This document shows, piece after piece, positions 8,391 to 40,700 of a DNA stretch of 44,455 nt. The stretch is from Flavobacteriales bacterium. GTDB taxonomy: Bacteria > Bacteroidota > Bacteroidia > Flavobacteriales_F > PHOS-HE28. The notes below the pieces were generated by a model. It had not been told where the DNA came from. It searched no databases and saw nothing but the letters and a program-made list of their open reading frames with translations. The stretch spans positions 1-44,455 of the forward strand of contig JAHDVX010000028.1 in assembly GCA_023382455.1 (NCBI GenBank), read 5' to 3'. Both the position numbers and the translations under genes were made by a program. Each line of letters opens with the position of its first letter. Positions within the stretch are counted from its first letter, which is position 1.

Positions 8391-8420
8391 TTTGCCCAAT
8401 TCGGGACTTTTCTATCTTTA
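8391..8420 (+). promoter_or_regulatory. Promoter of the TonB receptor operon (-33 TTTG, -7 TATCTTTA)
   Basis: TTTG (8391-8394) and TATCTTTA (8413-8420) are 18 nt apart, close to the Bacteroidota arrangement TTTG / TAnnTTTG. They lie 46 nt ahead of the receptor start. This is the best two-part promoter in the window. Confidence 0.6.
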
Positions 8421-8466: not shown

Positions 8467-11400
8467 ATGCTGAGAAAACTATGCTCAGCCGCTGTGGCCT
8501 TTGTTTGCAGCGCGCTCAGCCTGAATGCACAAGTCGGTTCAGGCACCCTTCAAGGCACCATCAAGGACAAGACCTCCAACGAGCCGCTTCCCTTTGTCTC
8601 CATCGTGGTGGAGAACAGGGGAACCCGGGTGGCTGCGGGCCAGTCCGATTTCGACGGCAACTACAAGATCAACCCCATTGAGCCGGGCACCTATGATGTG
8701 ACCGCGAGCTTCGTGGGCTACCAGCCGTTGAAGATCACCGGGATGATTGTCAACAGCAACAAGATCACCTTCCAGGACTTCGCCCTGAACAGCGGGGTGC
8801 AACTGGGTGATGTGGAAGTGGTCCGTTACAAGGTGCCTTTGATCGACAAGGATGGCGGTGCCACCGGTGCCACCGTCACACGCGACCAGATCGCCAAGAT
8901 GCCCACCCGTTCGGCCACGGCCATCGCCACCACCGTGGCAGGTGCCAGTACGGCGGGCACGGGCGGTGGCATCAGCATCCGCGGTGCGCGCTCGGACAAT
9001 ACCTATTACTATATTGATGGAGTGAAGGTGCCGGCCGGCGCGGGAACGGGTCTGCCCAAGAGCGCCATCGAGGAAGTGCAGGTGCTCACCGGCGGTCTGC
9101 CGGCCAGCTATGGCGACGTCACCGGTGGTGTGGTGAACATCACCACCCGCGGACCCAGCAGGTCCTTCTTCGGCGGGGTGGAATACTTGACCTCGGGCTA
9201 CAAGGTCGGGTCGGACATCACCGATATCGTCGGCTTGGACAAGTTCGCCTTCAACCAGTTGGAACTCAGCCTATCCGGGCCGCTCTTCTTCAAGAAGGAC
9301 AGCTTGGGCAACAAGGACAAGCCCTTGCTGGGCTTCTTCCTCAGCGGCCAGTTGACGGACGTGGTGGACGGGTCCCCGCTGTACAACGGTGATATTCGTG
9401 TGAAGACCGATGTGCGCGACCGCCTGCTTGCCGAACCCTACCGCGTGGTGACCGTGGCCGGGCAACCGGTGGTACGCTACAATTCGGACTACCTGCGTGA
9501 CAGCGATATCGAGCACCTCAAAACGCGCCAGAATGCACGCAGCCAAGGTGCACTGGCCTCCTTGAAGATCGACATCACCACCACGCCCACCATCAACCTG
9601 TCCGTGGGCGGTTCCATGGACCTGAGCAACAACTTGTCCTTCAACCGCAACAACTCCCTGCTGAACGCGGGCAACAACACCGAATTCCGGAACAATACGT
9701 GGCGTACCTTCCTGCGCTTCACGCAGCGCTTCAACAGCCGTGAGGAGGAAGCAGGGGCCGAAGGGGAGAAGGGAGGTATCAAGAACGCGTATTACAGTGT
9801 GCAGTTGGACTACTCCCGCTTCACGCAGAAAAGCGCTGCCGAGGCCCATGGCGACAACCTGTTTGATTACGGCTACCTCGGCAAGTACACCATCGACCGG
9901 ATACCGACCTATTCCCTCGCGGGTCGGCAAACGGGCTTCATGGACACCCAGGTGCACTTCACCCCGTCGGACCTGAACCCTGATGCCGCCGCCTTCCCCA
10001 CACAGTATTTCTCCCTGTTCGGCGATGGGTCGCCATTTTACCTGGACCTTCTGGCCGTTCAGCAGAACAACGGCCTGCGCAATGGCGACCTCCCCAATTC
10101 CGTGTACAGCCTTTGGAACAACGTTGGCGTGCTCAGCAACCAATGGTCCAGCTACCAAAGCGACCAGGCCCGGGTCTCCGCCACGGGGGCCGCGGATATC
10201 GGCAAGCACAGCGTGAGCGTGGGGGTGGAATATGAGCAGCTCACCCAGCGTTCCTATGCCTTGGCCCCGGTGGGCCTGTGGGGGGTGGCGCGCCAATTGA
10301 CCAACTTCCACCTGCGCGAGTTGAACTACAACGACTCCACCCTGGTCCAAGGGCCAGGTGGGCTGATCCTCACCAACTTCAACCGGTTGGTGGGTGATGA
10401 CCAGACCGTGTTCGATTACAACCTCCGCCAAGCCTTGGGCCTTGATCCCCGGGGAACCGACTTCATCGACGTGGATGCCCTGGACCCCTCGGTGTTCTCC
10501 TTGGACATGTTCTCGCCTGATGAGCTGATTCAGAACGGCCAAGGCGGGCTGATCAACAGCTACTACGGATACGACTACACCGGGGAGAAGCTGACCAAGC
10601 GCCCCAGCTTCTCCGATTTCTTCAACGATTTCAAGATGATCGGGAACGACACGGCCTACACGCGCCTGCAGGCCCCCTTCCAACCGATCTATGTGGCGGG
10701 CTATGTGATGGACAAGTTCGCCTTCGACGACATCATCTTCAACGTGGGTGTGCGTGTGGACCGATATGACGCGAACCAGTACGTGCTGAAGGATCCCTAC
10801 CTCTGGCGCCCGGCCTACACGGCCGGGGATGCCGCGGTGCAGGACCTGTACAATACGGGAGTGCCGCGCCCCGGGAACATCGGGGATGATTTCGTGGTGT
10901 ACGTGAACAACAGCGCTGAGCCCACGGCCATCGTGGGTTACCGTGACGGTGATACCTGGTACAACGCCCAAGGTGAGGTACTGGCCGACCCCAAGGTGCT
11001 TCGCCAGTCGGAAGGCATTCAACCGTATTTGGTGGACTACAAGAACGACCCGGCGGGCAGCTTGGTCGGCTCCAAGCTCCGCCAGGAGGCCTTCGAGGTA
11101 TACAAGCCGCAAGTGAACGTGATGCCCCGCATCGCTTTCTCCTTCCCGATCAGCGACGAGGCCGTGTTCTTCGCGCACTACGACATCCTCACCCAGCGTC
11201 CCACGGGCTACGGCCGCCTGGACCTGCTGGGCTATGCCTACATCGAGAACACGGGGGCCATCATGAACAACCCCAACCTGAAGCCCACCAAGACCATCGA
11301 CTACGAGCTGGGCTTCCAGCAGGTGCTCAGCAAGGCCTCCTCCTTGAAGCTTTCGGCCTACTACCGTGAGCTGCGCGACCAGATCCAGGTGCGCAACGTG

Positions 11401-12174
11401 GCCCAGGCCTGGCCGGTGACCTACCGCACCTACGACAACATCGACTTCGGCAACGTGATCGGGTTCACGGCCACCTACGACCTGCGCCGCACCAAGAACG
11501 TGTGGTTGCGCGGCAGCTACACCCTGCAGTTTGCCAAGGGCACGGGTTCGGACCCCAACACCACCCTCTCCCTGATCAACGCCAACCTGCCCAACCTGCG
11601 CACGGTCTTCCCGCTGAGCTTCGACCAGCGCCACCGCTTCCAGGCCACCGTGGACTTCCGCTACGGGGAGGGAACCGACTACAATGGCCCGATGCTTTTC
11701 GGCAAGAAGATCTTCGAGCGTACCGGTATCAACATCGTGGCCGACCTCGGCAGCGGAACGCCTTACAGCCGTTCGTCGCGGATCGTGAACACCGGCGAGG
11801 GCCAGGGCGGCTACCAGCTGGACGGGACCCTCAACGGTGCGGGCCTGCCTTGGCAGTTCAACACCAGCCTGGTGCTGGACCGCGACATTCCCTTGGTTTT
11901 CGGCAAGGACAAGGGTGAGCAGGCCAAGCGTTCGAACCTGAACATCTTCCTGCTGGTGAACAACGTGCTGAACACCGAGATGGTGACCGGCGTGTATCGT
12001 GCCACCGGGTCGCCGGACGATGACGGCTTCCTGGCCTCGGCCGACTTCCAGACCTATATCGACGGGAAGAACGACCCGCAGAGCTACCGCGACCTCTACG
12101 CGCTCAAGGTGAACACACCATACAACTACGGAGCCCCGCGTACCATCCGTCTGGGTGCACGCCTCGACTTCTGA
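8467..12174 (+). CDS. TonB-dependent receptor with N-terminal carboxypeptidase-regulatory-like domain
   Basis: The outer-membrane receptor has 1235 residues. ATG 8467 is chosen because it begins a signal peptide (MLRKLCSAAVAF, cleavage near LNAQ at 21-22). The frame is open further upstream, but that part crosses the promoter. Residues about 24-109 form a CarboxypepD_reg-like domain (GTLQGTIKDKTSNEPLPFVS, GTYDVTASFVGYQP). The plug follows at about 130-250 (IRGARSDNTYYYIDGVKVP, GGLPASYGDVTGGVVNITTRGP). A long 22-strand-type barrel ends in Phe (RLGARLDF). Such receptors use TonB/ExbBD energy to import ligands or act with surface partners. No SusD-like gene is next to it. Instead it is followed, 20 bases on, by a large exported protein and then a PorV/PorQ-like barrel, suggesting a three-part surface unit. 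The ligand is unknown. Confidence 0.9.
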   Translation: MLRKLCSAAVAFVCSALSLNAQVGSGTLQGTIKDKTSNEPLPFVSIVVENRGTRVAAGQSDFDGNYKINPIEPGTYDVTASFVGYQPLKITGMIVNSNKITFQDFALNSGVQLGDVEVVRYKVPLIDKDGGATGATVTRDQIAKMPTRSATAIATTVAGASTAGTGGGISIRGARSDNTYYYIDGVKVPAGAGTGLPKSAIEEVQVLTGGLPASYGDVTGGVVNITTRGPSRSFFGGVEYLTSGYKVGSDITDIVGLDKFAFNQLELSLSGPLFFKKDSLGNKDKPLLGFFLSGQLTDVVDGSPLYNGDIRVKTDVRDRLLAEPYRVVTVAGQPVVRYNSDYLRDSDIEHLKTRQNARSQGALASLKIDITTTPTINLSVGGSMDLSNNLSFNRNNSLLNAGNNTEFRNNTWRTFLRFTQRFNSREEEAGAEGEKGGIKNAYYSVQLDYSRFTQKSAAEAHGDNLFDYGYLGKYTIDRIPTYSLAGRQTGFMDTQVHFTPSDLNPDAAAFPTQYFSLFGDGSPFYLDLLAVQQNNGLRNGDLPNSVYSLWNNVGVLSNQWSSYQSDQARVSATGAADIGKHSVSVGVEYEQLTQRSYALAPVGLWGVARQLTNFHLRELNYNDSTLVQGPGGLILTNFNRLVGDDQTVFDYNLRQALGLDPRGTDFIDVDALDPSVFSLDMFSPDELIQNGQGGLINSYYGYDYTGEKLTKRPSFSDFFNDFKMIGNDTAYTRLQAPFQPIYVAGYVMDKFAFDDIIFNVGVRVDRYDANQYVLKDPYLWRPAYTAGDAAVQDLYNTGVPRPGNIGDDFVVYVNNSAEPTAIVGYRDGDTWYNAQGEVLADPKVLRQSEGIQPYLVDYKNDPAGSLVGSKLRQEAFEVYKPQVNVMPRIAFSFPISDEAVFFAHYDILTQRPTGYGRLDLLGYAYIENTGAIMNNPNLKPTKTIDYELGFQQVLSKASSLKLSAYYRELRDQIQVRNVAQAWPVTYRTYDNIDFGNVIGFTATYDLRRTKNVWLRGSYTLQFAKGTGSDPNTTLSLINANLPNLRTVFPLSFDQRHRFQATVDFRYGEGTDYNGPMLFGKKIFERTGINIVADLGSGTPYSRSSRIVNTGEGQGGYQLDGTLNGAGLPWQFNTSLVLDRDIPLVFGKDKGEQAKRSNLNIFLLVNNVLNTEMVTGVYRATGSPDDDGFLASADFQTYIDGKNDPQSYRDLYALKVNTPYNYGAPRTIRLGARLDF

Positions 12175-12194
12175 TCCCCATTTGAAAAGGCCAC

Positions 12195-15100
12195 ATGACC
12201 ATGAACAACTTCCGCCTTTCCACCCTGACGATCGCCCTGTCGACCGCCTCGCTGCTGTGCGCACGCGAGGTGCCGGGTGAGGGGCCCAGGGATAATGGTG
12301 CAAATGCCGGCGGCAGGGCTGCTGCCTGCGCACCCGCAACGGCCTTCGCCGAATTGGACCTCAACAACGTGCGTGCCCGCATCGAGAACGGCGGTACCCT
12401 TTGGGAAGACCGCGCCAGCGGTACGGCGGCCTACGAGGTGCCCAAGACCGATGGGCGCAATGGCCCCAAGGGCCTCTTTGCCGGCGCACTGTGGATGGGG
12501 GGGCTCTCGCCGGACAACGTGCTCAAGTTGGCCGCCGTGCGCTTCCGCCAAGTGGGCAATGACTACTGGCCGGGCCCGCTGACCGCTTTTGACACGATCA
12601 CCCAAACCGGTGACGCCTCGGTGGACGGCACCGTGTGCACCCAGTATGACCGCCTGTGGAAGACCATGCGGATGGACGCACAGCGCCAAGATGCCTACTT
12701 CAACTGCTTGGCAGACCCGGAATGCGACCCGAGCGATGAATTCCAAGGTTATTCCGTGCCCAGCTACTTCTTCGATTGGCCGGCCCACGGCGACGTATCC
12801 AAGGGACAGGACTACAACCTTGCGCCTTACCATGATTTCAACGACAACGGGGAGTATGACCCGGAGGGCGGGGATTATCCCGGCTATGACCTCAAAGGCG
12901 TGATCGACTGCAAGGCCAAGCGCCGTGAAGACGCGATTCCCCTGTTCGGCGACCAGAATATCTGGTGGGTGTTCAACGACAAGGGCAACACGCACACCGA
13001 ATCCGGTGGACAGCCCATCGGCATGGAAGTGCGTGCCCAGGCTTTCGCCTTCGCCACCAATGATGAGGTCAACAACATGACCTTCTACAACTACGTGCTG
13101 ATCAACCAGGGCAGCCAAACACTGGGGCAAACCTATTTCGGCCAATGGGTGGACGTGGAGATCGGTGGGCCTTATGACGACTATGTGGGCTGCGACGTGC
13201 AGCGTGGTCTCGGATATGGGTACAACGGTGATGCCGTGGACGAGGATTACTCCGGTGCCCCAGGTTACGGTGGCCCGAACCCCCCGCCGCCGGCCATGGG
13301 CGTGGACTTCTTCGAAGGGCCCTATCAGGACTATGATGCCATGGACAATCCGCTGACCACCAACTGCCAGGATGCCCGGGACTCCTTGGGTATCCCGTAC
13401 GCAGGTATCGGTATCGGCTATGGCGATGGCGTTGCGGACAACGAGCGTTACGGCATGCGTGCATTCGTGTACCACAACAATGCCGGCGGCGCCACCGGCG
13501 ACCCGAGCAGTGCAGGGCAGTACTACAACTACCTGCGGGCCATGTGGGGTGATGGCACCCCGATGACGTACAGCGGGAATGGCTACAGCACCTCCGGTGG
13601 AGGCGTACGGGCTTACTACATGTTCCCCGGCACCTCGGACACGCATGGCTGGGGCACGGATTGCGTACCCCAGGCGAATTGGGATGAGGTCAGCTCCGGC
13701 AACGCACCCTATGACCGCCGCTTCATCCAGAGCGCAGGTCCTTTCACCCTGGACCCGGGCGCCTACAACAACATCACCGTCGGGGTGGTGTATGCCCGTG
13801 CGGCAGGCGGTGGTGCACAGGCCAGCGTGGAGTTGATGCGCATCGCGGATGACAAGGCACAATCCCTGTTCGACAACTGCTTCCGTATCCTCGACGGTCC
13901 GGATGCCCCTGAAATGACGATCCAGGAGCTGGACCGTGAGCTGATCATCAGCCTGTCCAACCCGAAATCAAGTAACAACTTCAACGAACAGTACGTGGAG
14001 CTGGATGCCACCATCCCGCCGACCTCGGTTCAAACCCTGTATGAGACCCAGTCGCTGTACGACAGCCTGGGCAACTACATGGGCGAGTTTGAGGTGGAAG
14101 TGGGTACTACCACCACGAACAACGACCGCTTCTACCGCTTCCAAGGGTACCAGATTTACCAGTTGAAGGACGAGCAGGTATCACCGGACGAGCTGACCAA
14201 CACGGAGAAAGCCCGCTTGGTGGCCCAGGTGGACATCCAGGATGGCGTGAAGCAGCTGATCAACTATGTGAACGATCCGTCGATGGGCGTACCGGTCCCC
14301 GTTGAGCGGGTGAACGGGAACGACACCGGGATTGTGCACACGTTCCGGATCCTGGAGGACAAGTTCGCCACCGGCGACCCCCGCCTGACGAACTTCAAGA
14401 CCTACCATTTCATGGCGGTGGCGTACGGATTCAATGAGTACCAACCGTACAACCCCGAACAACTCACCGGGCAGGCCTTCCCCTACTTGGCCGGACGCAA
14501 ATCTCCCACGGGCTCCATTCGCAGCTACGCGGGTATTCCGCACAAGCCTTCCGTGGAAAATGGCGGCACGGTGATGAACGCGCAGTACGGTGACGGGTTC
14601 GAGATCACCCGCCTGGAGGGTCAAGGCAATGGCGGCAACAAGGTGGCCATCTCCAAGGAGACCATCGACGCCATCATGGCATCGCCGGATGGGCGCGTGG
14701 ACCAGATCAAGTACAGGAAGGGCCTGGGGCCGGTGAACATCAAGGTGGTCGACCCCTTGAAGGTACCGGTGGGCAATTTCGAGCTGTGGATCACGGATTC
14801 CACTACCATTCCCAACCCCACGGCTCCCATTACCTACAAGAGGCTCCAGGATGCGAGCTGGATGCTGGTACACCTGACGAACAACCCCACGAGCAGCGAT
14901 ACCATCCGTTCTGCGCGCACCATCCAGATGCAGAATGAGCAGTTGGTGCCCGAATGGGGCATCTCCATCACGATCACGCAAACACTGTTCTCCGGGGCCA
15001 ATGAGCGCTTCACGCCGTTCCTTGGAGGGTTCCGTGAAGCCGTGGGAACCGACTGGCTCACCGGCATACCCGATGAGGAGGGCGAGCAGACGCTGAACTG

Positions 15101-16373
15101 GATCAGGTCGGGTTCCGCGGTTGATGATGCGCTGCTCTTCCCGGACTATGTGGGAACGGATCCCGAGCAGAAGTACGAAAAGGTGTTTGACGGTACATGG
15201 GCACCATGGGCACTGGTGGGCCGCGCCGAGAACCAACCGGGTGCCAATGTGTTCAAGACCACGCAAGTGAATGCTGCGATCAAGGACATGTCCAGCGTGG
15301 AGGTGGTGTTCACCCCGGACAAGAGCAAATGGAGCCGATGCGTGGTGGTGGAGACCAACACGGATTCCTCCTTCTCCTTCCCGGCCAACACGCGCAAACT
15401 CTTCATGCGGCCGGTACCCAGCGTGGACAAGAACGGCCTGTCGGCCGGTATGCCGGGTGCCAACGTGGATGAAGCCAATAGCGTGAATGCCACGGGCATG
15501 GGCTGGTTCCCCGGCTATGCCATCGACCTGGAGACCGGGGAGCGCCTGAACATCTTCTTCGGGGAGAACAGCTTCACCGGTGGCGGCATCGGACGGGACA
15601 TGCTGTGGAACCCGAACGACCTGTTCGTGAACAGTTCGGGCCAACCGGTGCTCGGTGGCGGGCATTGGATCTATGTCACACGCAACGTGCGGCGCACCTT
15701 CGGCTCGGCCTTGGCCGGCAATAAGATGCCCCAGTACGATGGCTGTGCCTTCATCCGCTCCAAGATGGAAGGCAACGTGGCCACGAGCATGAACAACGTG
15801 TACGAAGGCGTGGCCTGGGTGGGCTCATCCCTGATGATGCCCGGCATGCAGATGAAGAGCCCGCAGGAAGGGTTGGTTCCCAACGAGCTTCGCCTGCGCC
15901 TTGATATCAGCAAGCCTTACAACATCTATTCGGAGCCCTACGCCGGATACACGCCCACGATCACGAACACCAGCCGGAACCAGGGACTGCCGCTCTACAC
16001 CTTCAGCACGGCATCTGGCATGACCGAGACCAATGTCACCGCCGTGGGTGAGGAGGGCCTGGACCTGATCGGCGTAGTGCCCAACCCGTACTATGCCTAC
16101 AGCGGGTATGAAACCTCACGGCTGGACAACCGGGTGAAGTTCATCAACCTGCCGAAGACCTGCACCATCACCATCTACACCGTGAGCGGCACCTTGGTGC
16201 GCAAGTACCGCAAGGACAATGACCTCACCTACCTGGATTGGGACCTGAAGAACAACTACAACGTTCCGATCTCCAGCGGCACCTACATCTGCCACATCGA
16301 TGCGCCCGGCCTGGGTGAGCGGGTGATCAAATGGTTCGGCGTAATGCGCCCGGTGGACCTGCAGAATTTCTAA
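12195..16373 (+). CDS. Large exported protein with a C-terminal T9SS-like sorting domain
   Basis: The protein has 1392 residues with an N-terminal signal peptide (STLTIALSTASLLCA). A second in-frame ATG at 12201 is an equally possible start. The body is rich in Gly, Asn, Asp and Tyr and contains stretches I recall as conserved in unnamed Bacteroidota surface proteins: LWEDRASGTAAYEVPK, FAGALWMGG, LFGDQNIWWVFNDKG, FYNYVLINQ. The acidic segment DFNDNGEYDPEGGDYPGYD looks calcium-binding. The last 100 residues form an Ig-like sorting domain (VPNPYYAYSGYE, then ITIYTVSGTLVRKY, SGTYICHIDAPG), followed by the tail WFGVMRPVDLQNF, which standard type A domains lack. It probably goes through T9SS to the surface. 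It sits between the receptor (20-base gap) and the PorV-like gene (6-base gap). I know of no assigned function. Confidence 0.8.
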   Translation: MTMNNFRLSTLTIALSTASLLCAREVPGEGPRDNGANAGGRAAACAPATAFAELDLNNVRARIENGGTLWEDRASGTAAYEVPKTDGRNGPKGLFAGALWMGGLSPDNVLKLAAVRFRQVGNDYWPGPLTAFDTITQTGDASVDGTVCTQYDRLWKTMRMDAQRQDAYFNCLADPECDPSDEFQGYSVPSYFFDWPAHGDVSKGQDYNLAPYHDFNDNGEYDPEGGDYPGYDLKGVIDCKAKRREDAIPLFGDQNIWWVFNDKGNTHTESGGQPIGMEVRAQAFAFATNDEVNNMTFYNYVLINQGSQTLGQTYFGQWVDVEIGGPYDDYVGCDVQRGLGYGYNGDAVDEDYSGAPGYGGPNPPPPAMGVDFFEGPYQDYDAMDNPLTTNCQDARDSLGIPYAGIGIGYGDGVADNERYGMRAFVYHNNAGGATGDPSSAGQYYNYLRAMWGDGTPMTYSGNGYSTSGGGVRAYYMFPGTSDTHGWGTDCVPQANWDEVSSGNAPYDRRFIQSAGPFTLDPGAYNNITVGVVYARAAGGGAQASVELMRIADDKAQSLFDNCFRILDGPDAPEMTIQELDRELIISLSNPKSSNNFNEQYVELDATIPPTSVQTLYETQSLYDSLGNYMGEFEVEVGTTTTNNDRFYRFQGYQIYQLKDEQVSPDELTNTEKARLVAQVDIQDGVKQLINYVNDPSMGVPVPVERVNGNDTGIVHTFRILEDKFATGDPRLTNFKTYHFMAVAYGFNEYQPYNPEQLTGQAFPYLAGRKSPTGSIRSYAGIPHKPSVENGGTVMNAQYGDGFEITRLEGQGNGGNKVAISKETIDAIMASPDGRVDQIKYRKGLGPVNIKVVDPLKVPVGNFELWITDSTTIPNPTAPITYKRLQDASWMLVHLTNNPTSSDTIRSARTIQMQNEQLVPEWGISITITQTLFSGANERFTPFLGGFREAVGTDWLTGIPDEEGEQTLNWIRSGSAVDDALLFPDYVGTDPEQKYEKVFDGTWAPWALVGRAENQPGANVFKTTQVNAAIKDMSSVEVVFTPDKSKWSRCVVVETNTDSSFSFPANTRKLFMRPVPSVDKNGLSAGMPGANVDEANSVNATGMGWFPGYAIDLETGERLNIFFGENSFTGGGIGRDMLWNPNDLFVNSSGQPVLGGGHWIYVTRNVRRTFGSALAGNKMPQYDGCAFIRSKMEGNVATSMNNVYEGVAWVGSSLMMPGMQMKSPQEGLVPNELRLRLDISKPYNIYSEPYAGYTPTITNTSRNQGLPLYTFSTASGMTETNVTAVGEEGLDLIGVVPNPYYAYSGYETSRLDNRVKFINLPKTCTITIYTVSGTLVRKYRKDNDLTYLDWDLKNNYNVPISSGTYICHIDAPGLGERVIKWFGVMRPVDLQNF

Positions 16374-16379
16374 GCCATC

Positions 16380-17459
16380 ATGACCGGAACAATGCGGAAT
16401 AGCAAGAGCATGAAGAATTCAATTGCCCGTATGATGGCCGCCGCTTCGCTGGCCTTGATCGCCGGAGGTGCCTGGGCGGGAAACCCCGACCGGGCCGGCT
16501 CTGCCGGTGCCACGCAGTTGCTGATCAATCCTTGGGCCCGCAGCAATGGCTGGTCCTTGGCGAACTCGGCCACTTTGAGGGGGGCCGAGGGCATGTTCGG
16601 CAACGTGGCCGGCCTGGCCCATGTGCGCAAGACCGAACTGCTGTTCACCACCACGCGTTGGCTGGAAGGAAGCGGGGTGAAGATCAACGCAGTCGGCTTC
16701 GGCCAGAAGCTCGGGGAAAGCGGCGTGCTCGGCATTACGGCCACCACGCTCTCCTTCGGTGAGATCCCGGTGACCACCGTGGACCAGCCGGAAGGCGGCC
16801 TTGGTACGTTCAGCCCCACACAGGCCAACATCGGGCTGGCCTATTCCAAGGCGTTCTCCAACAGCATCTTCGGAGGTCTGTTGGTGCGGGTGGTGTCCGA
16901 GTCCATCTCCAATGTCCGCACGTCGGGGGTCTGCTTCGATGCAGGTATCCAGTACGTCACCGGTCCCACGGACAACATCCACTTCGGCATCGCCTTGAAG
17001 AACGTCGGCCCGGCCATGCGGTTCGAAGGTGACGGCTTCGCCGTGCAAGGGCTCTTGCTCGCGTCGGATGATATCCTCACCTTGGAGCAGCGTTCCGCAG
17101 AGTTCGAATTGCCCTCGATGATGAATATCGGTGCGGCCTACGACATCAACATCAGCGAATTGCACCGGGTGACGGTGGCGGGCAACTTCACCTCCAACTC
17201 CTTCACCCGCGACCAATTCATCCTCGGGGCCGAGTACGCCTTCAAGAAGATGATCCACGTGCGCGGCGGCTACCTGTACGAGAAGAACGTGGGCGACAAG
17301 GACCTGCGGGAAACCGTGTTCACCGGCCCGAGCGCCGGCCTCAGCATCGATTTCCCCTTCGGCGAGGAGAAACAGAGCGCCATTGCACTGGATTACGCCT
17401 ACCGGGCCACCAATCCCTTCAGCGGTGTCCACAGCATCGGTGTGCGGTTGAGCCTGTAA
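16380..17459 (+). CDS. PorV/PorQ family outer-membrane barrel protein
   Basis: This 359-residue exported barrel starts at ATG 16380 or at one of two nearby in-frame ATGs (16392, 16410). The last gives the most usual signal peptide (MKNSIARMMAAASLALIAGG, cleavage near AWA). Family marks are the early segment AGATQLLINPWARSNG and LRGAEGMFGNVAGLA, which correspond to the conserved start of PorV/PorQ proteins. Repeated amphipathic beta-strands follow, with a terminal strand GVHSIGVRLSL. In the T9SS, PorV is a 14-stranded FadL-like barrel that binds cargo sorting domains and shuttles them to the attachment complex; PorQ and other paralogues have less clear roles. The gene lies 6 bases after the large exported protein and ends the operon before a perfect hairpin terminator. 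That makes it a candidate dedicated partner of that protein, which is inference. Confidence 0.8.
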   Translation: MTGTMRNSKSMKNSIARMMAAASLALIAGGAWAGNPDRAGSAGATQLLINPWARSNGWSLANSATLRGAEGMFGNVAGLAHVRKTELLFTTTRWLEGSGVKINAVGFGQKLGESGVLGITATTLSFGEIPVTTVDQPEGGLGTFSPTQANIGLAYSKAFSNSIFGGLLVRVVSESISNVRTSGVCFDAGIQYVTGPTDNIHFGIALKNVGPAMRFEGDGFAVQGLLLASDDILTLEQRSAEFELPSMMNIGAAYDINISELHRVTVAGNFTSNSFTRDQFILGAEYAFKKMIHVRGGYLYEKNVGDKDLRETVFTGPSAGLSIDFPFGEEKQSAIALDYAYRATNPFSGVHSIGVRLSL

Positions 17460-17471
17460 TCCGCAATTCCA

Positions 17472-17479
17472 TATCTTTG
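17472..17479 (+). promoter_or_regulatory. -7-type promoter element for greA
   Basis: TATCTTTG, with TTG at 17448-17450 lying 21 nt upstream as a possible -33 box. The terminator hairpin of the preceding operon begins 2 nt downstream, so a transcript from here would start inside that hairpin. Confidence 0.5.
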
Positions 17480-17480
17480 G

Positions 17481-17503
17481 AAAAGGACCCGCCGGGTCCT
17501 TTT
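17481..17503 (+). terminator. Perfect hairpin terminator of the TonB receptor operon
   Basis: AAAAGGACCC and GGGTCCTTTT pair over 10 bp around a GCC loop, 21 nt after the PorV-like stop. The stem itself supplies the T run. Its symmetry would also allow function on the other strand. Confidence 0.8.
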
Positions 17504-17559
17504 CCATGTTCCACCCCTCAAGGGACCGTTAACAAGCCGCCGGACAAGGCGGAGGAGAG

Positions 17560-18033
17560 ATGAGCACGCCAGCCTATTACACGGAGGAAGGTCTCCGTAA
17601 ACTGCAGGAGGAACTGCACCATTTGCGCACCGTGGAGCGCCCCCACATCAGCCAACAGATCGCTGAGGCGCGGGACAAGGGTGACCTGAGCGAGAATGCC
17701 GAGTACCACGCCGCCAAGGAGGAACAAGGCCTACTGGAGGCACGCATCGCCAAGATGGAGGAGGTGCTGGCCAGCGCCCGCGTGGTGGACCCGGACCTGT
17801 TGGCCACCGACAAGGTGTACATCCATTGCACCGTGAAGGTGAAGCAAGTGGCCAACGGCATGGAGCGCTCCTTCACGCTGGTGGCCGAGAGCGAGGCCGA
17901 CATCAAGAGCGGGAAGATCAGTGTGAGTTCGCCCATCGGGCAAGGCCTGTTGGGCCGCATGGCCGGTGATGTGGCCGACATCAAGACCCCGAACGGCACC
18001 ATGCAGTTCGAGGTGATCGAGATCTCCCGCTGA
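17560..18033 (+). CDS. greA: Transcription elongation factor GreA
   Basis: This 157-residue cytosolic factor enters the RNA polymerase secondary channel and stimulates cleavage of backtracked transcripts. The N-terminal coiled coil has the signature ARDKGDLSENAEYHAAKEEQ, with acidic tip residues D42 and E45 that hold the catalytic magnesium. The C-terminal FKBP-like domain ends GRMAGDVADIKTPNGTMQFEVIEI. Length is exactly that of the family. Its stop overlaps the start of the HIT protein gene by one base (TGATG), so the two are probably translationally coupled. A TATCTTTG promoter element lies about 80 bases upstream. Confidence 0.97.
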   Translation: MSTPAYYTEEGLRKLQEELHHLRTVERPHISQQIAEARDKGDLSENAEYHAAKEEQGLLEARIAKMEEVLASARVVDPDLLATDKVYIHCTVKVKQVANGMERSFTLVAESEADIKSGKISVSSPIGQGLLGRMAGDVADIKTPNGTMQFEVIEISR

Positions 18034-18422
18034 TGGCCTCCATTTTCACCCGCATCATCCGGGGCGAGATCCCCTGCCACCGCATCGGCGAGGACGACCG
18101 GTTCCTGGCCTTCCTGGACATCAATCCGGTGCGCAAGGGCCACACCCTGGTGATCCCGAAGGTGGAAGTGGACCGCTTCTTCGACCTGCCCGCCGATGTG
18201 CTGTCAGGCATTCTGCCGTTCGCCCAAGGGGTGGCCCGGCGGATTGAGGCGGTGGTGCCCTGCGACCGCATCGGCATGAGCGTGGTGGGGCTGGAGGTAC
18301 CCCATGCGCACATGCACCTGATCCCCATCGATTCCCTCAATGACATGGACTTCACCCGGCCCAAGGTGAAGATGTCCAACGAGGAGATGGCGGCCTTGGC
18401 GGAGCAGATCCGCAACGCCTGA
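18033..18422 (+). CDS. HIT family nucleotide-binding hydrolase
   Basis: This 129-residue cytosolic protein begins with the HIT pattern IFTRIIRGEIPCHRI and DDRFLAFLDINPVRKGHTLVIPK. It carries the histidine triad HAHMHLIPI with His91, His93 and His95. HIT hydrolases of the HINT type cleave adenosine phosphoramidates and related nucleotide conjugates through a histidine-AMP intermediate. The second half is a little unusual (residues 76-90 read VPCDRIGMSVVGLEV), but the triad is intact. The ATG overlaps the greA stop by one base. The gene converges on ruvC with 30 bases between the stops and no strong terminator between them. Confidence 0.93.
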   Translation: MASIFTRIIRGEIPCHRIGEDDRFLAFLDINPVRKGHTLVIPKVEVDRFFDLPADVLSGILPFAQGVARRIEAVVPCDRIGMSVVGLEVPHAHMHLIPIDSLNDMDFTRPKVKMSNEEMAALAEQIRNA

Positions 18423-27394: not shown

Positions 27395-29302
27395 TCACTT
27401 CAATGTGATCCGCTGCACATGGAAGCGCTCGCCGTTGCTTATGCGCACGGTGTAGATGCCCGGCGCATTGCCGCCCAGGTCAATGGTGGTGGCCGTTCCG
27501 TTGAAGTGGGCGGACTGGACCAGTGAGCCCAGCACGTTGAACACCTCCACGGTCATGGAGCCGGGCTCTTTCGCGTGGATCTCAACGGGGCCGGTGGTCG
27601 GGCTGGGGTACATGCGGATACCGGCCAGGCTGGACACTTCCTGGATGCCGATCGTGGGATCGCTGGTCAGGCGGATCGCCCAGGCATTGCCATTGCCGTA
27701 GAGGTTCACGCCCTGGTCATCCACCGGCAGCCAGAGCATGCTGGCCGCGCCCGGCTGGGGCACGGTCAGGTCGTCGATGACGTAAATGTTCTTGCCGTTT
27801 TCCTGGTACAGGTTCGCCGATACGTAGTAGCCGCCGGGCTGGAGCGTGATCGGCTCATAGAACTGGGCCATGGGCCGGCGCTGGGACACATCGGTGCCGG
27901 TGAGCACGCGCACATCCGTCTCCACCAGGGGAGAGGAAAGGTTCGGCGGGCTGGAGAACACATCGGCTGTGTCGTACACGGCCGCGATGAAGTAGCTGCC
28001 GGCCTGGCTTTGGGTGGCCAGGCGGACCTCCACCCCGGTGAAGGTGGCCGGTTGGGCGATCTCGAAGTAGTTCAGCAGCCGCACATCCTGGGTGTTGTTC
28101 GTGAATGTGGTCGTTCCGGCACGGCTCGATACCAGTTGGGCGGAGGGCACCGCATCGATGGCATCCAGCGCGTACAGGTGCTCCGTGACCCGGAAATAGC
28201 GGGTCTTGCTGTTGTTGTTGGGGTCCGTATCGTTCGCGATGTCGTCGCTGCTGATGGTGAACTCAGCCTTGTAGGTGCCGATAGGCAACGGCGTGGGCAG
28301 GGTGAGGTCGGCATCGGCCACCATGGTATCGCCCATGGCCATGGAGCCCACGTTGATGGTGGTGTTCGCCACCTCGTTGTTGGCAGCGTCCTTCACGGAT
28401 ACGTTCACGGAGACATTGTTCTGGGTGGCACCGCCGAAGTTGATGATGCCGGCGCCCACGTTGATCGAGCCGGGCATTTGGACCTGTGGCATGCTGCCGT
28501 ATTCCGTCCCTTCCCCGAACTGGGAGGTGTAGCCATAATCCATCACCAGTTCGTGGTCGGGCAGGGTGTTGATCTCCACGTCGTCGATCTGCCAGTGGTA
28601 GTGCGTTACGGTCTCATGCGTGAACCGGAAGCGCACGTTGGAAGGGGCAGCCGCGATGACGGTGCCGATGGAGAAGGCCACCTCGCGCGTGTCGGAATCG
28701 ATGTTCATGGCGACATCCTGACCCACGGAAATGCGGGTGGGCCAGGTAGTGCCACCGTCCGTGCTCACCTCCAGGTAATAGCCGGGGGCGGAGGTGCAGC
28801 AAAAGCGGAAGCGCTCATGGAAGCGGATCTCCACGGCGGGCGTGGCGCTCAGGTCCAGGACCGGGGACACCAGCGAACCCACGAATACGGCCGGGGAGGC
28901 CACCATGGCGGGCGGCGTGCTGGTCCAGTCGGTGTTCGCCGAATCGGAGGCGAAGATCATGAAGCCGTTGGCGGCGGTGGGGGAATCAATGTTCTCTGTG
29001 GCATTGCTCCAAGCCCCGGTCACACCGGTGGTGGTATGGCGCCAAATATTGCCGTTGGGCCCTGCTGTGGTCCAGGCACCTACGCCGTTGTTGCCGGCCA
29101 GGCCGTTGGCGAAGTCCTCATGGAAGACCTGGTCGCGCTGGGCACCGGCCATCGGAGATGCTGTCGGGTGTGCCGGGGAGGCGGCCTGCGAGGTTTCCCA
29201 TTGGCCCTTGTAGGGCTGGGGTGCGGAGACCTGTAATTGGGCATGGGCGCCGCTTCCGATCAGGGAGAGGGCCAATGCCGAAGCGTGGAACCTGTTTATC
29301 AT
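27395..29302 (-). CDS. T9SS type A sorting-domain protein (paralogue 1)
   Basis: This is a 635-residue secreted protein. ATG 29302 is chosen because it opens a signal peptide (MINRFHASALALSLIGSGAHAQ) and has a TACTTTTG element 17 nt upstream. About residues 45-235 look like a jelly-roll, MAM-like domain (VFHEDFANGLAG, GYYLEVSTDGGTTWP, FRFTHETVTHYHWQIDDVEI). Residues 250-370 are Ig/CARDB-like (NFGGATQNNVSVNVSVKD, IGTYKAEFTISSDD). A beta-rich region with GSYFIAAVYDTAD follows. The last 80 residues are a type A sorting domain (MYPSPTTGPVEIHAKEPG, VFNVLGSLVQSAHF, GNAPGIYTVRISNG, VQRITLK). It should cross the outer membrane by T9SS and be anchored or released. The next gene upstream is a full-length paralogue. 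The function is unknown; adhesin or protease-associated roles are guesses. Confidence 0.88.
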   Translation of the reverse strand: MINRFHASALALSLIGSGAHAQLQVSAPQPYKGQWETSQAASPAHPTASPMAGAQRDQVFHEDFANGLAGNNGVGAWTTAGPNGNIWRHTTTGVTGAWSNATENIDSPTAANGFMIFASDSANTDWTSTPPAMVASPAVFVGSLVSPVLDLSATPAVEIRFHERFRFCCTSAPGYYLEVSTDGGTTWPTRISVGQDVAMNIDSDTREVAFSIGTVIAAAPSNVRFRFTHETVTHYHWQIDDVEINTLPDHELVMDYGYTSQFGEGTEYGSMPQVQMPGSINVGAGIINFGGATQNNVSVNVSVKDAANNEVANTTINVGSMAMGDTMVADADLTLPTPLPIGTYKAEFTISSDDIANDTDPNNNSKTRYFRVTEHLYALDAIDAVPSAQLVSSRAGTTTFTNNTQDVRLLNYFEIAQPATFTGVEVRLATQSQAGSYFIAAVYDTADVFSSPPNLSSPLVETDVRVLTGTDVSQRRPMAQFYEPITLQPGGYYVSANLYQENGKNIYVIDDLTVPQPGAASMLWLPVDDQGVNLYGNGNAWAIRLTSDPTIGIQEVSSLAGIRMYPSPTTGPVEIHAKEPGSMTVEVFNVLGSLVQSAHFNGTATTIDLGGNAPGIYTVRISNGERFHVQRITLK

Positions 29303-29319
29303 GTGTTTGGTGTTGTGCT

Positions 29320-29327
29320 CAAAAGTA
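29320..29327 (-). promoter_or_regulatory. -7-type promoter element for T9SS paralogue 1
   Basis: TACTTTTG on the minus strand, 17 nt upstream of the ATG at 29302, which implies a short 5' leader. Confidence 0.5.
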
Positions 29328-29507
29328 GCCGGGCGAAGTTGAGGATTTCCCTTCATCCGGGCTACGGTGCCGGAAGGCTGGGGAGCGGTTTGCGGAGCAA
29401 GGCCTTCGGGATGCAGGGAAGGCTATTGTGACGGCACACATGTTCCGGGCGCTGAACTTTCGAGGCAAACACCTCCGCCATGTGTGCTCGGGCTACAAGT
29501 CACCATC

Positions 29508-29772: not shown

Positions 29773-31596
29773 TTACTTCACGGCGATACGCTGCACGTTG
29801 AAGCGGGCACCGTCGCTGATGCGCACGCTATAGATGCCGGGCGCATTGCCCTCCAGGTTGATGGAGGAGGTCGTTCCGTTGAAGTGTGCGGTCTTCACCA
29901 GTGCACCCAGTGCGTTGAACACTTCCACGGTCATCTTTCCGGCATCCTGCACGCGGATCTCCACCTGTCCGTTGGTGGGGTTCGGGTACATGGATACACC
30001 GGTGAGGCTGGGGTTTTCCTGCACGCCCACGGAGGGGTCGGTGGTCAGGCGGATGCCCATGGCGTTACCGTTGCTGTAGATGAACTGGCCTTGGTCGTCG
30101 TTGGGGATCCACAGCATGGTCGCATCGAACGGCTGCTCCACGGTGATGTCATCCAGGATGTACAGGTCGTTACCTCCTTCCTGGAACAGGCGAACGGCCA
30201 CGTAGTAGGCGTTGGGGTCCAAGGTGAGGGGATCCATGAAGGCCACTTGGGCCACACCGGCGGCCAGGTCGGCTTCCGTGATCACGCGGGGTTCGCTCTC
30301 CACCAAGGGTGAGGAAAGGGGCGTGCCGACGTACATCTCGGAGGTGTCGTACACGGCGGCGATGAAGTAGCTGCCGGCCATGGAGTTGTTCACGTCCAGT
30401 ACCACTTCCACGCCGGTGAAGGTGGACTGGTCAATGACGTTGTAGTAGTTCAGGAAGCGCACGTCCTGGTTGTTGTCGGTGAAGGAGCCGGTACCCAGGG
30501 TGGTCAGGCGCAGTACGGAGTCCGGCACCAGGTTGATGCCGTCCAAGGAGTACCAATCGTCGGTCACCTCGAAATAGCGGTAGGCCGTGTTGTCGGCGGG
30601 GTTCTCATCCGAGCCGATCTGGTCGCTGGAGATGGTGAAGGTCGCGGTGTACAGGCCCACCGGGAGTGGGGAGGGCAGGGTGATGGTTTCATCCGACAGC
30701 ACCGTATCGCCATTGTTCATGGTGGCAAACGTGCTCGTGGCCGTCCCCACCGTGGCGGAAGAGGCATCGGTAATGGTGGTTGTCACCGTTACGTTGGTCT
30801 GAGGTTGGCCGCCGAAGTTCACCACCTGCGCGCCGGCATTGATGGTGGAGGGCATCTGGTTCTGGGGGATACGGGCGTATTCCATGCCGTTGCCGAACTG
30901 GGAGGTGTACCCCCAAGTGGTGATCATTTCATAGTCCGGCAGGGTGATGATGGCCACATCGTCGATCATCCAGGCATAGTCGCAGCCACCCTCATAGCGG
31001 AAACGCACCCAAGCACTGCTTGCTCCGGCAATGTCCGCGGATACGTTCAGGGAGAACACCTGGGGGTTGGATGCGACGAAATTGTTCACGCCCACATCGT
31101 TGATCTGGTGGGTGGTCCAGTTCACGTTGTCGGTGCTGGTCTCCACATAGCAAAAACCTTGGAACGCACGGTAGTACTGCTCGAATTGCACCACCACGCC
31201 CGAATAGGCGCTGAGGTTCACCGGGTTCGCCATGGCAATCCAAGCGTTCTGGGAGCCGCCGCAGAGCAGGTCGGAGTCGAACAGGGCGAAGCCATTGTCC
31301 GCCGTGGTGGAGGCAATGGGGTTGATGGCATAGGCGCCGGAGGGAACATCGGTGCCGATCACCCAGTTGTCGTTGTTCGGGTCGTTGATGTTACCGATGG
31401 TCCAGTTGGCCGGGTTGGAAAAGTCGTCGGACCAGATCACGGCGCGCTCACCGCCTTGGGCGGTAACGGTCGGGGTGGTCCGGTTGGGAACGTCCAACGC
31501 ACGCTGCTTCAGGTAGCGCTGGGTTCCGACACCCTGGGCCGATACCCCGAACGATGCCACGGCGACTGCCATAGCGGTCAAGTAGAGTCTGTTCAT
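29773..31596 (-). CDS. T9SS type A sorting-domain protein (paralogue 2)
   Basis: This is a 607-residue secreted protein. ATG 31596 begins the signal peptide MNRLYLTAMAVAVASFGVSAQ; the frame upstream is open only as far as a TTG. It matches paralogue 1 along its whole length. The N-terminal jelly-roll segment has AVIWSDDFSNPANWTIG and CDYAWMIDDVAIITLPDYE. The middle has PLPVGLYTATFTISSDQI against PLPIGTYKAEFTISSDDI in paralogue 1, and AGSYFIAAVYDTSE against AGSYFIAAVYDTAD. The sorting domain has MYPNPTNGQVEIRV, VFNALGALVKTAHF and GNAPGIYSVRIS. It is probably secreted and surface-attached. Each paralogue has its own terminator, so they are regulated separately. A weak TAACTTGG element lies about 40 nt upstream of the start. 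Confidence 0.88.
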   Translation of the reverse strand: MNRLYLTAMAVAVASFGVSAQGVGTQRYLKQRALDVPNRTTPTVTAQGGERAVIWSDDFSNPANWTIGNINDPNNDNWVIGTDVPSGAYAINPIASTTADNGFALFDSDLLCGGSQNAWIAMANPVNLSAYSGVVVQFEQYYRAFQGFCYVETSTDNVNWTTHQINDVGVNNFVASNPQVFSLNVSADIAGASSAWVRFRYEGGCDYAWMIDDVAIITLPDYEMITTWGYTSQFGNGMEYARIPQNQMPSTINAGAQVVNFGGQPQTNVTVTTTITDASSATVGTATSTFATMNNGDTVLSDETITLPSPLPVGLYTATFTISSDQIGSDENPADNTAYRYFEVTDDWYSLDGINLVPDSVLRLTTLGTGSFTDNNQDVRFLNYYNVIDQSTFTGVEVVLDVNNSMAGSYFIAAVYDTSEMYVGTPLSSPLVESEPRVITEADLAAGVAQVAFMDPLTLDPNAYYVAVRLFQEGGNDLYILDDITVEQPFDATMLWIPNDDQGQFIYSNGNAMGIRLTTDPSVGVQENPSLTGVSMYPNPTNGQVEIRVQDAGKMTVEVFNALGALVKTAHFNGTTSSINLEGNAPGIYSVRISDGARFNVQRIAVK

Positions 31597-31734
31597 CTGT
31601 CGGTTGAGGTTGGGTTTTTTTTGAGGTTGAGGGGGCCAAGTTAACAAACACCATCGGCCCCTTGGACTTGGATGACGTGCGGTTATTGGAAAACGCTGCC
31701 TGTCGCCCTGGTGTTCACACTTTTTAGGGGAATC

Positions 31735-37754: not shown

Positions 37755-40700
37755 CTACTTGCTCACCACTACCCGCTGGGTAAAGGTGTGCTCGCCGGCC
37801 ACCACCTGCAGCAGGTAGGTGCCATTGGCGGCGTCATGCAGGTCCATCACGGTATTGATGCGTCCTTCGGCCACCAGCAGGGTGGTGCTCAGGGTCGTAC
37901 GGCCGGTGAGGTCCACCAAGCGTGCCTCCACGGTGGTGAGGCTGACGTCAAGCCCATCCATCGCCACGTTGAGGCGGTCGCCATTGTTGGGGTTCGGCCA
38001 GATGTTGAAGCCGGCCTGCTCGTCCAAGGACAACAGTCCTGCAGGACGCCCGGCCCCGCCGCCATTGTCGATGGTGATGGTGCAGGTGCTCGGGCAGAAG
38101 TCGCCCCACATGCCGCTCACCATGGCCCGCACTTCCACATTGTAGGTGGCGCCGTTCATCAGGGGCGGAGCCACATTGCTGTTCCACTTCAGCTGCAGGA
38201 TGTACGTGTTGCGCACGAAGGTCTGGTCGTAGCCCTCGCCCGCATTGAAGATGCGGAACTCATACTGGCTGGCAGCCTCCACCGGGGTGGCGTAGATGAA
38301 GCTGTTGTTGGTGTTGAAGCTCCGCGTCTCGTTGCAGCTGTGGCCGTAGGCCGGGGCCTGGACCAGCTGCGGGCAGCCGGTGACCGAGGTGCTGATGGCC
38401 ATTTCGCAGCCCGCGCCCCAGTGGGCATCGGCCAAGGGGCCGAACTTGTCGGTGCGCACGCGGGCGAAGTAGGTCACGCCCGGGGTGAGCGGGTTCACCG
38501 AGGCCATGTCCCAGAAGATCACGTAGTTGGTGGTCTTGGCGATGCGGCGGATGAAGCCGGCATCGGGGTCGCTGAACTCGAACTGGTACTTCAGGGCTTG
38601 GCCTTGGTAGTTGGTACCGGTCTGCTTCACGGCGTACACCTTGTTGCCCATGAGGTTGTTCATGATGCCGCACTCATTGGCCGCGATGTTGACCGGGCCC
38701 AAGGGCAGGCAGAAGCTGTGGCTGCTGCCGTAGCTGGGGCTTTGTGCCGGGTTGGCGGGCGAAGCGCTTCCACCGTTGAAGCTGTCGCGCAGGATCACCT
38801 TGCCGTTCGTGGTGCGCAGTTCCCATCCGCCGTTCACGATGCCGTCACCGAAGCTGTCCATCAACTGGAAGCCGTAGCAGCTTCCGGCCAGGAACACCGT
38901 TTCATTCACCGTGGTGTTGGCTTGGGCTGCGGCAGGTCCACCGGAGGCCACCACCAAGCTGGTCTCATTGGTGATCTGCCAAGTGATCTGGTCGGGGTTG
39001 CCATCGGTGGTGATGCTGATCACCGCCATGTTTCCGCCCACACACTCGCAGTCGCTGCTGATGCGGCCCGTGGCGAACCCGGGGCCGGCATCGCACACAT
39101 CACCCACCACGCCAGGCATGAAGGGGCAGTTGTCCGCGCAGTCCGGCAGGCCGTCCTCGTCGCTGTCCGGCGAGTTGGAGATCTCGTTGTACCCCACGGT
39201 GAAGTTGTAGCCGTAGTTGTACCCGTCGGCGATCACGTAGTAGGTCTCGCCGATGTCCACCTTGATCTTGGGCGTTTCATTTACCCAGTTCCAGACCTCG
39301 GGATCATCGTTGAACCACTCGTACTGGAAACAGGCTCCGCTGGCTACATAAGCGTAATAGCCGGGGTCATCGGCCGGTGGGAAGACCACGGCGTTGTCCG
39401 AAGCCCGGATGATCTGCAGGGCCACGTAGTTGGCGGGCTCGTTGGCAGGCAGGCAAAGGTTCACCACGGCGCTGTCGGCACAATCCGATGCGGTGAATGA
39501 GGACCAGCTGTCATTGCCCCAGAAGGAGCCGTTCAAACTGCTGTACCCGTTCGTTGCGGAGGTGTTGCCGGCAACGGCGATGCCATCGGTCAGCGGAATG
39601 GCGTTGGAGGCTCCGTTGCCACCAATGCTGAAGGTCCAGGTCGTGGGGCAGGAGGCCGTGCCGAAGCTGTTCGTGGGTACCACGTGCCAGCTCAAGGTTG
39701 AGCCCAGGTCCACGCCGGGCCAATTGAGCATGTTGGCCGTGTTGTAGTCGCCGTCGGTGATGCTGGTGCCGGGGTAATTGGCCACCACCAAGGTGCCGTT
39801 GAAGTACACGTCATAACCGGTTGCACCGAAGGCGGCCGGCCAGCTGAAGGCGATGGGCGTGGTGTTCACCGCCAGGGTGGTGCCGTTGGCCGGGAAGGTG
39901 GGGGCGGGCACGCACGGCGGGATACCGGGGCACAGCAGGGTGAAGGGCCGCTTGTGCACCCCGTAGTTCGCATCGCTCATGATGTAGTAGTCACCCGGCG
40001 TGGATACGGTGAAGTTCAACAAGCCACCGGCGTTGGCCGCCGGCTTGCCGATGCAGGTGAATGCGCTGGCGGCGCAACCATCCTCCACGGGTGCCATCAC
40101 GAACTTGATGGTGCTGGCTCCGCCCATGTCGGAGGTTCCGGCTTGAATGGCGTAGGTGCCTGCCTGTGTGGCGGTGAAGCGGTAAAGGCGCTCGGGTCCG
40201 TTACCCTCTACGGCGGAGCCGCTGAAGCAGCTGACGGCGCTGGTGTATTTGTCCCCGTTGTAGGCCGCTGCACCGTAGGCGTATGCTGCGGGGGCGTTGG
40301 CATCATCCACGTATTCACCGCAGGCAAGCACTTGGGCGGTGCTGCAATCCATGCTGGTGGTGAAGCGTGCGAAGAAGCTGTTGGCCGAGTAGCTGGGCCC
40401 GGAACACACTTGGCGGATCCTCACCTCATAGGTGGTGGTGGGGTTCAGGCCGGTGATGGTGTAGGGCGAGGTGGCGCTGGTGCTGGCCACGGTGCCGGCG
40501 CCGGCGGTGGCACCGGTGCCCGGGATGAATCCGGCGGGGCCGTATTCGATCACGCAGGGCTCCGAGGTGTTGCCCCAGCTCACGGTGGCACTGCTGCTGC
40601 CCACGGCGGAGAAGCTCACCGCATCAGGCGTGCTGCAGGCCGGGGCCGGTGCACACGAGATCATGGACTTCATGCCCTGGTCGTAGGTGCTGGAGGAATA

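Follow-up and report, generated by a model that had tools for sequence, protein, structure and literature searches.

In the type 9 secretion system (T9SS), the C-terminal domains (CTDs) of PorZ and PorU stay uncleaved and are held by outer membrane barrels, PorZ by PorQ and PorU by PorV, in the excerpts of the studies that describe them (PMC8545088, PMC10202324). Excerpts of a 2025 article name PorV as the barrel that recognises all type A CTDs, and describe type B cargos with a PorP/SprF shuttle (SprB-SprF), where a barrel gene follows the cargo gene and orphan cargos occur too (PMC12618676). Here, we analysed a stretch of 44,455 nucleotides (the window) from a Flavobacteriales bacterium of the class Bacteroidia (GenBank assembly GCA_023382455.1, contig JAHDVX010000028.1), in which the genes for a TonB-dependent receptor, a 1392-residue protein that we call BIG, and a PorV/PorQ-family barrel follow one another as a cassette (Table 1). 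This trio is an old, conserved operon. We give slightly better than even credence to the proposal that it builds a single outer membrane surface complex, in which BIG would be exported by the T9SS and kept on its own barrel by an uncleaved CTD and an added tail, beside the receptor.

As in the PorZ-PorQ and PorU-PorV pairs, a type-A-like CTD, nearest to theirs, is associated here with a barrel of the PorV/PorQ family. Unlike in those pairs, the BIG head is neither the two propellers of PorZ (as given in the excerpt of PMC8545088) nor the protease of PorU, the BIG C-terminus is longer, the barrel clade is separate, and a TonB-dependent receptor is encoded in the operon. PorZ and PorQ are present in the same genome besides BIG and the cassette barrel. 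The gene order recalls SprB-SprF, but the BIG CTD is type-A-like and the barrel belongs to the PorV/PorQ family, with PorP_SprF scoring 16.9 bits versus a cut-off of 22.3. Excerpts on BamG-BamH describe a FadL-homologous barrel that likewise holds a surface protein (PMC12578637, PMC12611786). BamH, however, is a lipoprotein, and BamG/BamH identity was rejected because the BamG model is missing from the NCBIfam hits of the cassette barrel at E<=1.

Like SusC-SusD, the locus places a TonB-dependent receptor gene beside the gene of a large, presumably surface-exposed partner, and the initial annotation had proposed a SusD-like or substrate-capturing role for BIG. The SusD-like identity did not hold up. 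No SusD family matched BIG in Pfam at E<=1, the SusC model was not among the NCBIfam hits of the receptor, and the predicted N-terminal fold of BIG is a super-beta-sandwich. A loose lipobox pattern occurs in 12 of 96 cassette BIGs, and the BIG of the window has no lipobox by eye. A substrate-capturing role is possible. Among the titles and abstract openings listed in searches of the open-licence literature, none concerned this operon, and BIG has no searchable name; within that limited scope, the combination of a type-A-like signal, its own PorV-family barrel, a C-terminal extension of fixed length and a TonB-dependent receptor in the operon appears undescribed.

Conservation and distribution of the receptor-BIG-barrel trio

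The open reading frames (ORFs) of the window and their positions match the initially annotated order and gaps, which are 20 bases between receptor and BIG and 6 bases between BIG and barrel. The call of a single operon was supported by the recurrence of this order beyond chance in other genomes (21 of 34 loci, 49 of 82 BIG ORFs and 36 of 40 further loci). BIG homologues were found at E<=1e-5 in 55 of 58 relatives searched. The ordered trio was present in 21 of the 34 loci read from the class, spanning 18 families, and in 14 of these class trios the next two genes were sized like greA and the HIT-domain gene that follow in the window. Eighty named loci contained 82 BIG ORFs; the barrel came next in 51, with the receptor also in front in 49 of these, greA as the next gene after the barrel in 40 of the 51, and greA then HIT in 37. 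Forty further loci, 36 of them from other classes, contained 36 ordered trios, of which 32 lie outside the class. The loci were not drawn at random: of at least 584 relatives, the 80 best supplied L085-L164, and L165-L204 were taken from the stronger phylum matches. The named carriers bear labels such as Flavobacteriales, Bacteroidales, Crocinitomicaceae, Cryomorphaceae and Fluviicola, and all are metagenome assemblies or 'uncultured'.

ORF calling was mechanical, and antisense ORFs may be picked in GC-rich loci. The 13 class loci without a complete trio comprise contig ends (L053, L055, L056 and L076), orphans (L050, L051, L052, L054, L058 and L078), distant N-module proteins (L063 and L071), and L057, where the receptor is masked by an antisense ORF and is placed by tblastn (L028). 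Among the 40 further loci, no ORFs were called in L170, no receptor was called in L177 or L182, and L197 lacked an adjacent barrel. All six class genomes read that have a BIG without an adjacent barrel also carry the cassette. In the Bacteroidales loci L123 and L152, a second BIG follows the barrel, in L152 between the barrel and greA. BIGs without receptor or barrel (L106, L131, L145, L118 and others) stand in unrelated contexts; the genes upstream of the lone BIG in L131 and L145 resemble exonuclease VII subunits by eye.

Co-occurrence was scored in an even sample of 392 phylum genomes, with BIG at E<=1e-10, barrel at E<=1e-40 and strong BIG at E<=1e-40, thresholds that were picked after the scores were seen. 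SprA was found in 320 genomes, BIG in 189, the cassette barrel in 150 and strong BIG in 85. SprA was present in all 189 BIG carriers, and BIG was present in none of the 72 SprA-negative genomes. Every barrel carrier had BIG (150/150), and every strong-BIG genome had the barrel (85/85; Fisher p 2e-36 within SprA-positive genomes). Thus, the co-occurrence beyond chance on which the initial proposal depended was found. The spread is patchy, with no BIG match in 203 of the 392 genomes and a match in 8 of 100 SprA-positive class genomes; families f14, f21, f25, f26, f27, f30, f31 and f33 contributed no sampled genome to the BIG matches. Carrier genomes contain one barrel match in the class (8/8) and 1 to 5 elsewhere.

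The BIG C-terminal domain, its tail and the barrel

Neither a Pfam family nor an NCBIfam model above cut-off was found for BIG. Both of its halves were modelled as single chains with AlphaFold2 from alignments of 60 sequences. The model of the C-module (residues 640-1392; mean predicted local distance difference test score (pLDDT) 87.4) ends in a beta-sandwich, which is closest to the PorZ and PorU CTDs. PorZ is the best fold match (Foldseek E 2e-5; VIA-align to 5m11 Z 10.4, root mean square deviation (rmsd) 2.5, 89 residues), and the PorU CTD (6za2) aligns with Z 9.2, compared to Z 7.0-7.7 for other T9SS CTDs. For the middle of the C-module, no fold was among the matches listed, CTD matches filling the list. 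At E<=0.1, the NCBIfam models matched among 60 relatives were TIGR04183 (56), PorZ (51), FlgD (27) and PorU (24), and the PorZ model also reached BIG CTDs in other genomes, with E of 7e-11 to 8e-9 for the seven listed. The type B CTD model TIGR04131 was absent from the NCBIfam hits of BIG at E<=1, and a PF18962 scan of the same genome gave 121 matches, none at BIG. These results support the initial description of BIG as a T9SS-type protein, through the kinship of its CTD to PorZ and PorU and the presence of SprA in 189 of 189 carriers, with a TIGR04183 match that is sub-threshold.

The weak matches to FlgD models (27 of 60 relatives; PF13860 in 3 of 19) would fit a plain uptake operon, in which BIG lies outside the T9SS and carries an adhesion fold like that of FlgD as its C-terminal Ig-like domain. 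We consider this very improbable. SprA is in every carrier and BIG is in no SprA-negative genome (0/72), the two best structural matches of the CTD are T9SS CTDs, and the type A CTD of a BIG N-module paralogue encoded in this genome scores above cut-off (33 bits). We also rejected the idea that the BIG CTD is a general signal on other cargos, as the genome of the window shows this CTD on BIG alone. In 58 relatives, weak matches of non-BIG proteins to the CTD profile stop by position 95 of 103, at or before the first tail residues, and two of them are PorZ genes. In genome G035, a non-BIG frame of 1428 aa (contig 4, ~8939-9220) has a C-terminus with a match to the PorZ CTD at 1e-17 and a weak match to the BIG CTD profile; it is possibly a PorU-like protein.

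Type A CTDs have an Ig-like beta-sandwich fold, which the AlphaFold2 model of the BIG CTD shows, and a near-invariant Lys near the C-terminus, which contacts PorV in the part of the report that treats it (Lauber et al., PMC10994853). In BIG, K1379 is present and is followed by 13 residues rather than a few. K1379 is the probable counterpart of the type A Lys, although the PorZ alignment is off by one position. The initial annotation had noted an extra tail on the sorting domain, WFGVMRPVDLQNF, which is present in the BIG of the window. BIGs counted as distinct if their last 500 residues differed, and the contig-cut L091 and L097 were excluded from tail counts. Among 111 distinct cassette BIGs, Lys (108) or Arg (2) lies exactly 13 residues before the end in 110, and the remaining one has Lys at 12; the final residue is F in 83, Y in 11, I in 10 and L in 7. 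This 13-residue rule is kept in 37 of 38 BIGs from L165 on, mostly from other classes, despite differing letters (for example, ...QEQQILDRF, ...KKRVQLNTF and ...NRKFDPSGL). As controls, 28 ordinary type A CTDs were drawn from the 121 matches in this genome; L001, L002, L005 and L006 were left out as read on the wrong strand, and F, Y, I or L is the final residue in none of the 24 that were readable. The 29 PorZ proteins mostly end ~5 residues past the Lys, with a last residue of N in 20, R in 6, I in 2 and K in 1. Residues 1386-1391, beyond the last strand, are predicted to form a short C-terminal helix. The second BIG of L152 ends KWFGSRYQE, a shortened tail.

The cassette barrel scores 137.4 bits against NF033709 (PorV/PorQ family; cut-off 90), in agreement with the initial assignment as PorV/PorQ-like, and falls below the equivalog cut-offs of PorV (47 of 250 bits), PorQ (67 of 220) and PorV2 (31 of 325). 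Cassette barrels form one clade across classes, apart from PorV, PorQ and PorV2, with support in the SH-like approximate likelihood ratio test (SH-aLRT) of 99 in a tree of 37 rows and 98 in one of 29 rows; the second tree omitted PorV_L308 and PorQ_L236, misread rows that had disturbed the first tree, and PorV_L305. The genome of the window carries the cassette barrel, PorV, PorQ and PorV2. Its PorV2 lies on contig 22 (L017:5890-6864; NF052325 468 bits), and 27 of 30 class genomes have a PorV2; to our knowledge, no T9SS role of PorV2 is known. An origin of the cassette barrel from PorQ, which the PorZ-like CTD might suggest, was rejected. The unrooted tree pairs PorQ with PorV (SH-aLRT 82-86) and places the cassette barrel with PorV2 opposite.

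We compared pairwise distances of 13-residue BIG segments with those of the barrel after removing greA, receptor and whole-BIG distances. Tail divergence follows barrel divergence in the class (partial r 0.447, n 54), and 2 of 587 BIG segments are as high. With greA left out, r is 0.391 (n 60; 2 of 592 segments as high), and in other classes it is 0.292 (n 32; 18 of 367 as high). Tail versus receptor divergence shows no excess (r -0.044). These values bear on the alternative that BIG is an ordinary type A cargo on canonical PorV, with the cassette barrel acting as a FadL-like channel or as a structural partner of the receptor. That alternative agrees with the excerpted statement that type A CTDs are all PorV-bound (PMC12618676), with the presence of both canonical PorV and PorQ in the genome, and with the existence of BIGs without an adjacent barrel. 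It is at odds with the lack of any barrel without BIG in the sample (150/150), with the tail, which none of the 24 ordinary type A CTDs that were read possesses, and with the co-variation of the tail with the barrel and not with the receptor. We judge it quite unlikely.

Instead, we favour export of BIG to a barrel of its own. BIG would pass through Sec and be recognised by the type 9 translocon through its type-A-like CTD; the genome-level co-occurrence with SprA is 189/189. The PorV-family barrel would then dock the CTD and take it from the translocon, with no handover to PorU for cleavage, and the CTD would stay attached, as in PorZ and PorU. The tail, with 13 residues past the conserved Lys and a hydrophobic end, may help to lock the CTD on the barrel, which would serve as shuttle plus permanent anchor. 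The anchored head of BIG would thereby sit beside, and perhaps touch, the TonB-dependent receptor, most likely as a ligand-capturing or gating partner.

Several results weigh against this mechanism. Unrelated Ig-like domains reach Z of about 6.5-8.5 against the BIG CTD, the CTD of the window scores 15.0 or 17.3 bits versus the TIGR04183 cut-off of 23 and has no Pfam hit, and a PDB sequence search reaches PorZ at E 0.43 only. The part of the PorZ model that BIG CTDs match is also matched by non-BIG proteins, in one case better (the G035 contig 4 frame, 1e-17), and the tail helix is predicted at low confidence. RP-type tails alone give r 0.189 (n 50; 55 of 591 segments as high), all 96 cassettes pooled give r 0.184 (70 of 444 as high), and a coarser co-variation test shows no excess for the CTD core (0.006) and 0.284 for the BIG middle. 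At the genome level, 39 of the 189 BIG genomes (1e-10) have no barrel at 1e-40, and a barrel cut-off of 1e-55 leaves 81 of 85 strong-BIG genomes with a barrel and 28 barrel genomes without strong BIG. Finally, no adjacent barrel was called for 34 distinct BIGs; ORF calling or contig ends may hide some of these barrels. K/R at position -14 is retained in 31 of the 34, which implies that BIG-barrel adjacency is not obligatory, and their final residues vary more (6 of the 34 end in T, E, M or K). Part of the tail-barrel co-variation is one clade split. Because the signal drops when that split is removed or all cassettes are pooled, we take the co-variation as moderate support. The tail of the initial annotation is real and conserved in length, and the specificity suggested for it is consistent with a co-variation that comes mostly through the clade split. 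That the operon has a PorV-family barrel of its own is likewise supported, while the role of this barrel as specific exporter or anchor, as proposed there, receives indirect support, from the separate clade and the co-variation.

The BIG head, the receptor and the function of the operon

In VIA-align, the N-module model (pLDDT 90.4) aligns with the super-beta-sandwich that GH15, GH94 and GH116 enzymes carry as an accessory domain, best with 9ju0 (Z 18.9, rmsd 3.2, 252 residues aligned). Foldseek TM-scores are low (0.17-0.33, query-normalised); therefore, we read the likeness as a shared sub-fold and make no enzyme call. A glycosidase identity was rejected, since the match is limited to the accessory super-beta-sandwich (252 of 587 residues). 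The paralogue mentioned above (contig 35, L016:2790-4763; 657 aa) is 41-46% identical to the N-module and ends in an ordinary type A sorting domain, which implies that a similar head may use the standard export route. Cysteines C45, C148, C333 and C1323 of BIG are invariant or nearly so in the family, and one of them lies in the CTD; they are possible disulphides or a modification site. The receptor contains CarboxypepD_reg (~8545-8787), plug (~8869-9132) and OMP_b-brl_3 beta-barrel domains (PF13620, PF13715, PF07715 and PF14905), as expected from its annotation as a TonB receptor.

The role of receptor and BIG is less certain. Ligand capture for uptake is our first choice, and an envelope-building step is the second. 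In the latter, BIG and barrel would handle a surface glycan or mature outer membrane or T9SS clients, and the receptor would provide TonB energy. Each class genome has one barrel match (8/8), and greA and HIT follow the barrel in 40 and 37 of the 51 named loci. Nutrient loci, by contrast, are variable. In the class, the single copy and the common greA synteny point to a steady function. The nearest CTD is that of PorZ, an anionic lipopolysaccharide (A-LPS) delivery protein, and the N-module shares its super-beta-sandwich with GH94, GH15 and GH116 domains. There is also precedent for a TonB-dependent transporter that serves secretion, Oar/PopC of Myxococcus, in an excerpt of PMC6434023. Nevertheless, BIG is absent from about half of the phylum sample (203/392) and present in 8 of 100 SprA-positive class genomes, implying that it is dispensable for the T9SS or the beta-barrel assembly machinery (BAM) in general. 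The single-copy argument holds for the class only; the 1 to 5 barrel matches that genomes of other classes carry fit a diversifying uptake system and, together with the absences, speak for an accessory function. Moreover, for the rest of BIG we found no kinship to known biogenesis factors. We therefore regard an envelope-building module as unlikely.

Flanking elements and implications for type 9 secretion

Upstream of the trio, the initial annotation had placed a two-part promoter. The pattern TTTGN{17,21}TANNTTTR, which we take to be the Bacteroidota-type promoter consensus, has a single match in the window (0.09 expected), ahead of the receptor gene. The perfect hairpin reported after the trio is also present. 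A long T-run after the stem is absent and the terminator scan did not list the hairpin, so that a role as terminator is plausible only. A TATCTTTG element at 17471-17478, read by eye, stops at the hairpin start; it may represent the -7 element of a promoter for greA, in which case the hairpin would lie at the start of the greA transcript. Three more genes with T9SS type A sorting domains above the Pfam cut-off lie on the minus strand of the window (27395-29356, 29773-31647 and 37755-44102), one of which encodes 2115 aa.

Table 1. Features of the receptor-BIG-barrel operon and its surroundings in the window
Feature	Position	Strand	Basis or remark
Bacteroidota-type promoter-like element TTTG-18-TATCTTTA	8391..8420	+	Pattern scan
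TonB-dependent receptor, 1235 aa	8467..12174	+	ORF (ATG 8467, stop 12174) and Pfam
BIG, 1392 aa; Sec-type N-terminus by eye, putative T9SS cargo	12195..16373	+	ORF, family alignments
BIG N-module, residues 36-622, predicted super-beta-sandwich	12300..14060	+	AlphaFold2, VIA-align
BIG C-terminal sorting-type domain, residues ~1282-1384	16038..16346	+	PorZ and PorU CTD folds closest
BIG tail, last 13 residues, after Lys1379	16332..16370	+	Length conserved in cassette BIGs
Outer membrane barrel of the PorV/PorQ family, 359 aa; own clade, proposed as private anchor	16380..17459	+	NF033709, tree
Perfect hairpin, terminator-like; 14-nt arms 17478-17491 and 17493-17506, 1-nt loop	17478..17506	+	
greA; common downstream neighbour, outside the claimed complex	17560..18033	+	PF03449, PF01272
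HIT-domain gene; common downstream neighbour	18033..18422	+	PF01230, 69.4 bits

In its most specific form, our proposal is a widespread TonB transporter with a T9SS-delivered, non-lipoprotein partner, which would be locked by an uncleaved CTD and a hydrophobic key of fixed length on a private PorV paralogue; to this form we give somewhat less than even credence. As this type-A-like signal has a barrel of its own and an added C-terminal key, shuttle specificity could be tested through changes to 8 to 13 residues. The finding addresses the open question of how T9SS cargo is chosen for release, lipopolysaccharide attachment or permanent anchoring. If the proposal is true, the cassette barrel would represent a further T9SS cargo-barrel lineage besides PorV, PorQ and PorP/SprF, one dedicated to a type-A-like signal, and type 9 secretion would be directly linked to TonB-driven transport in one conserved operon.

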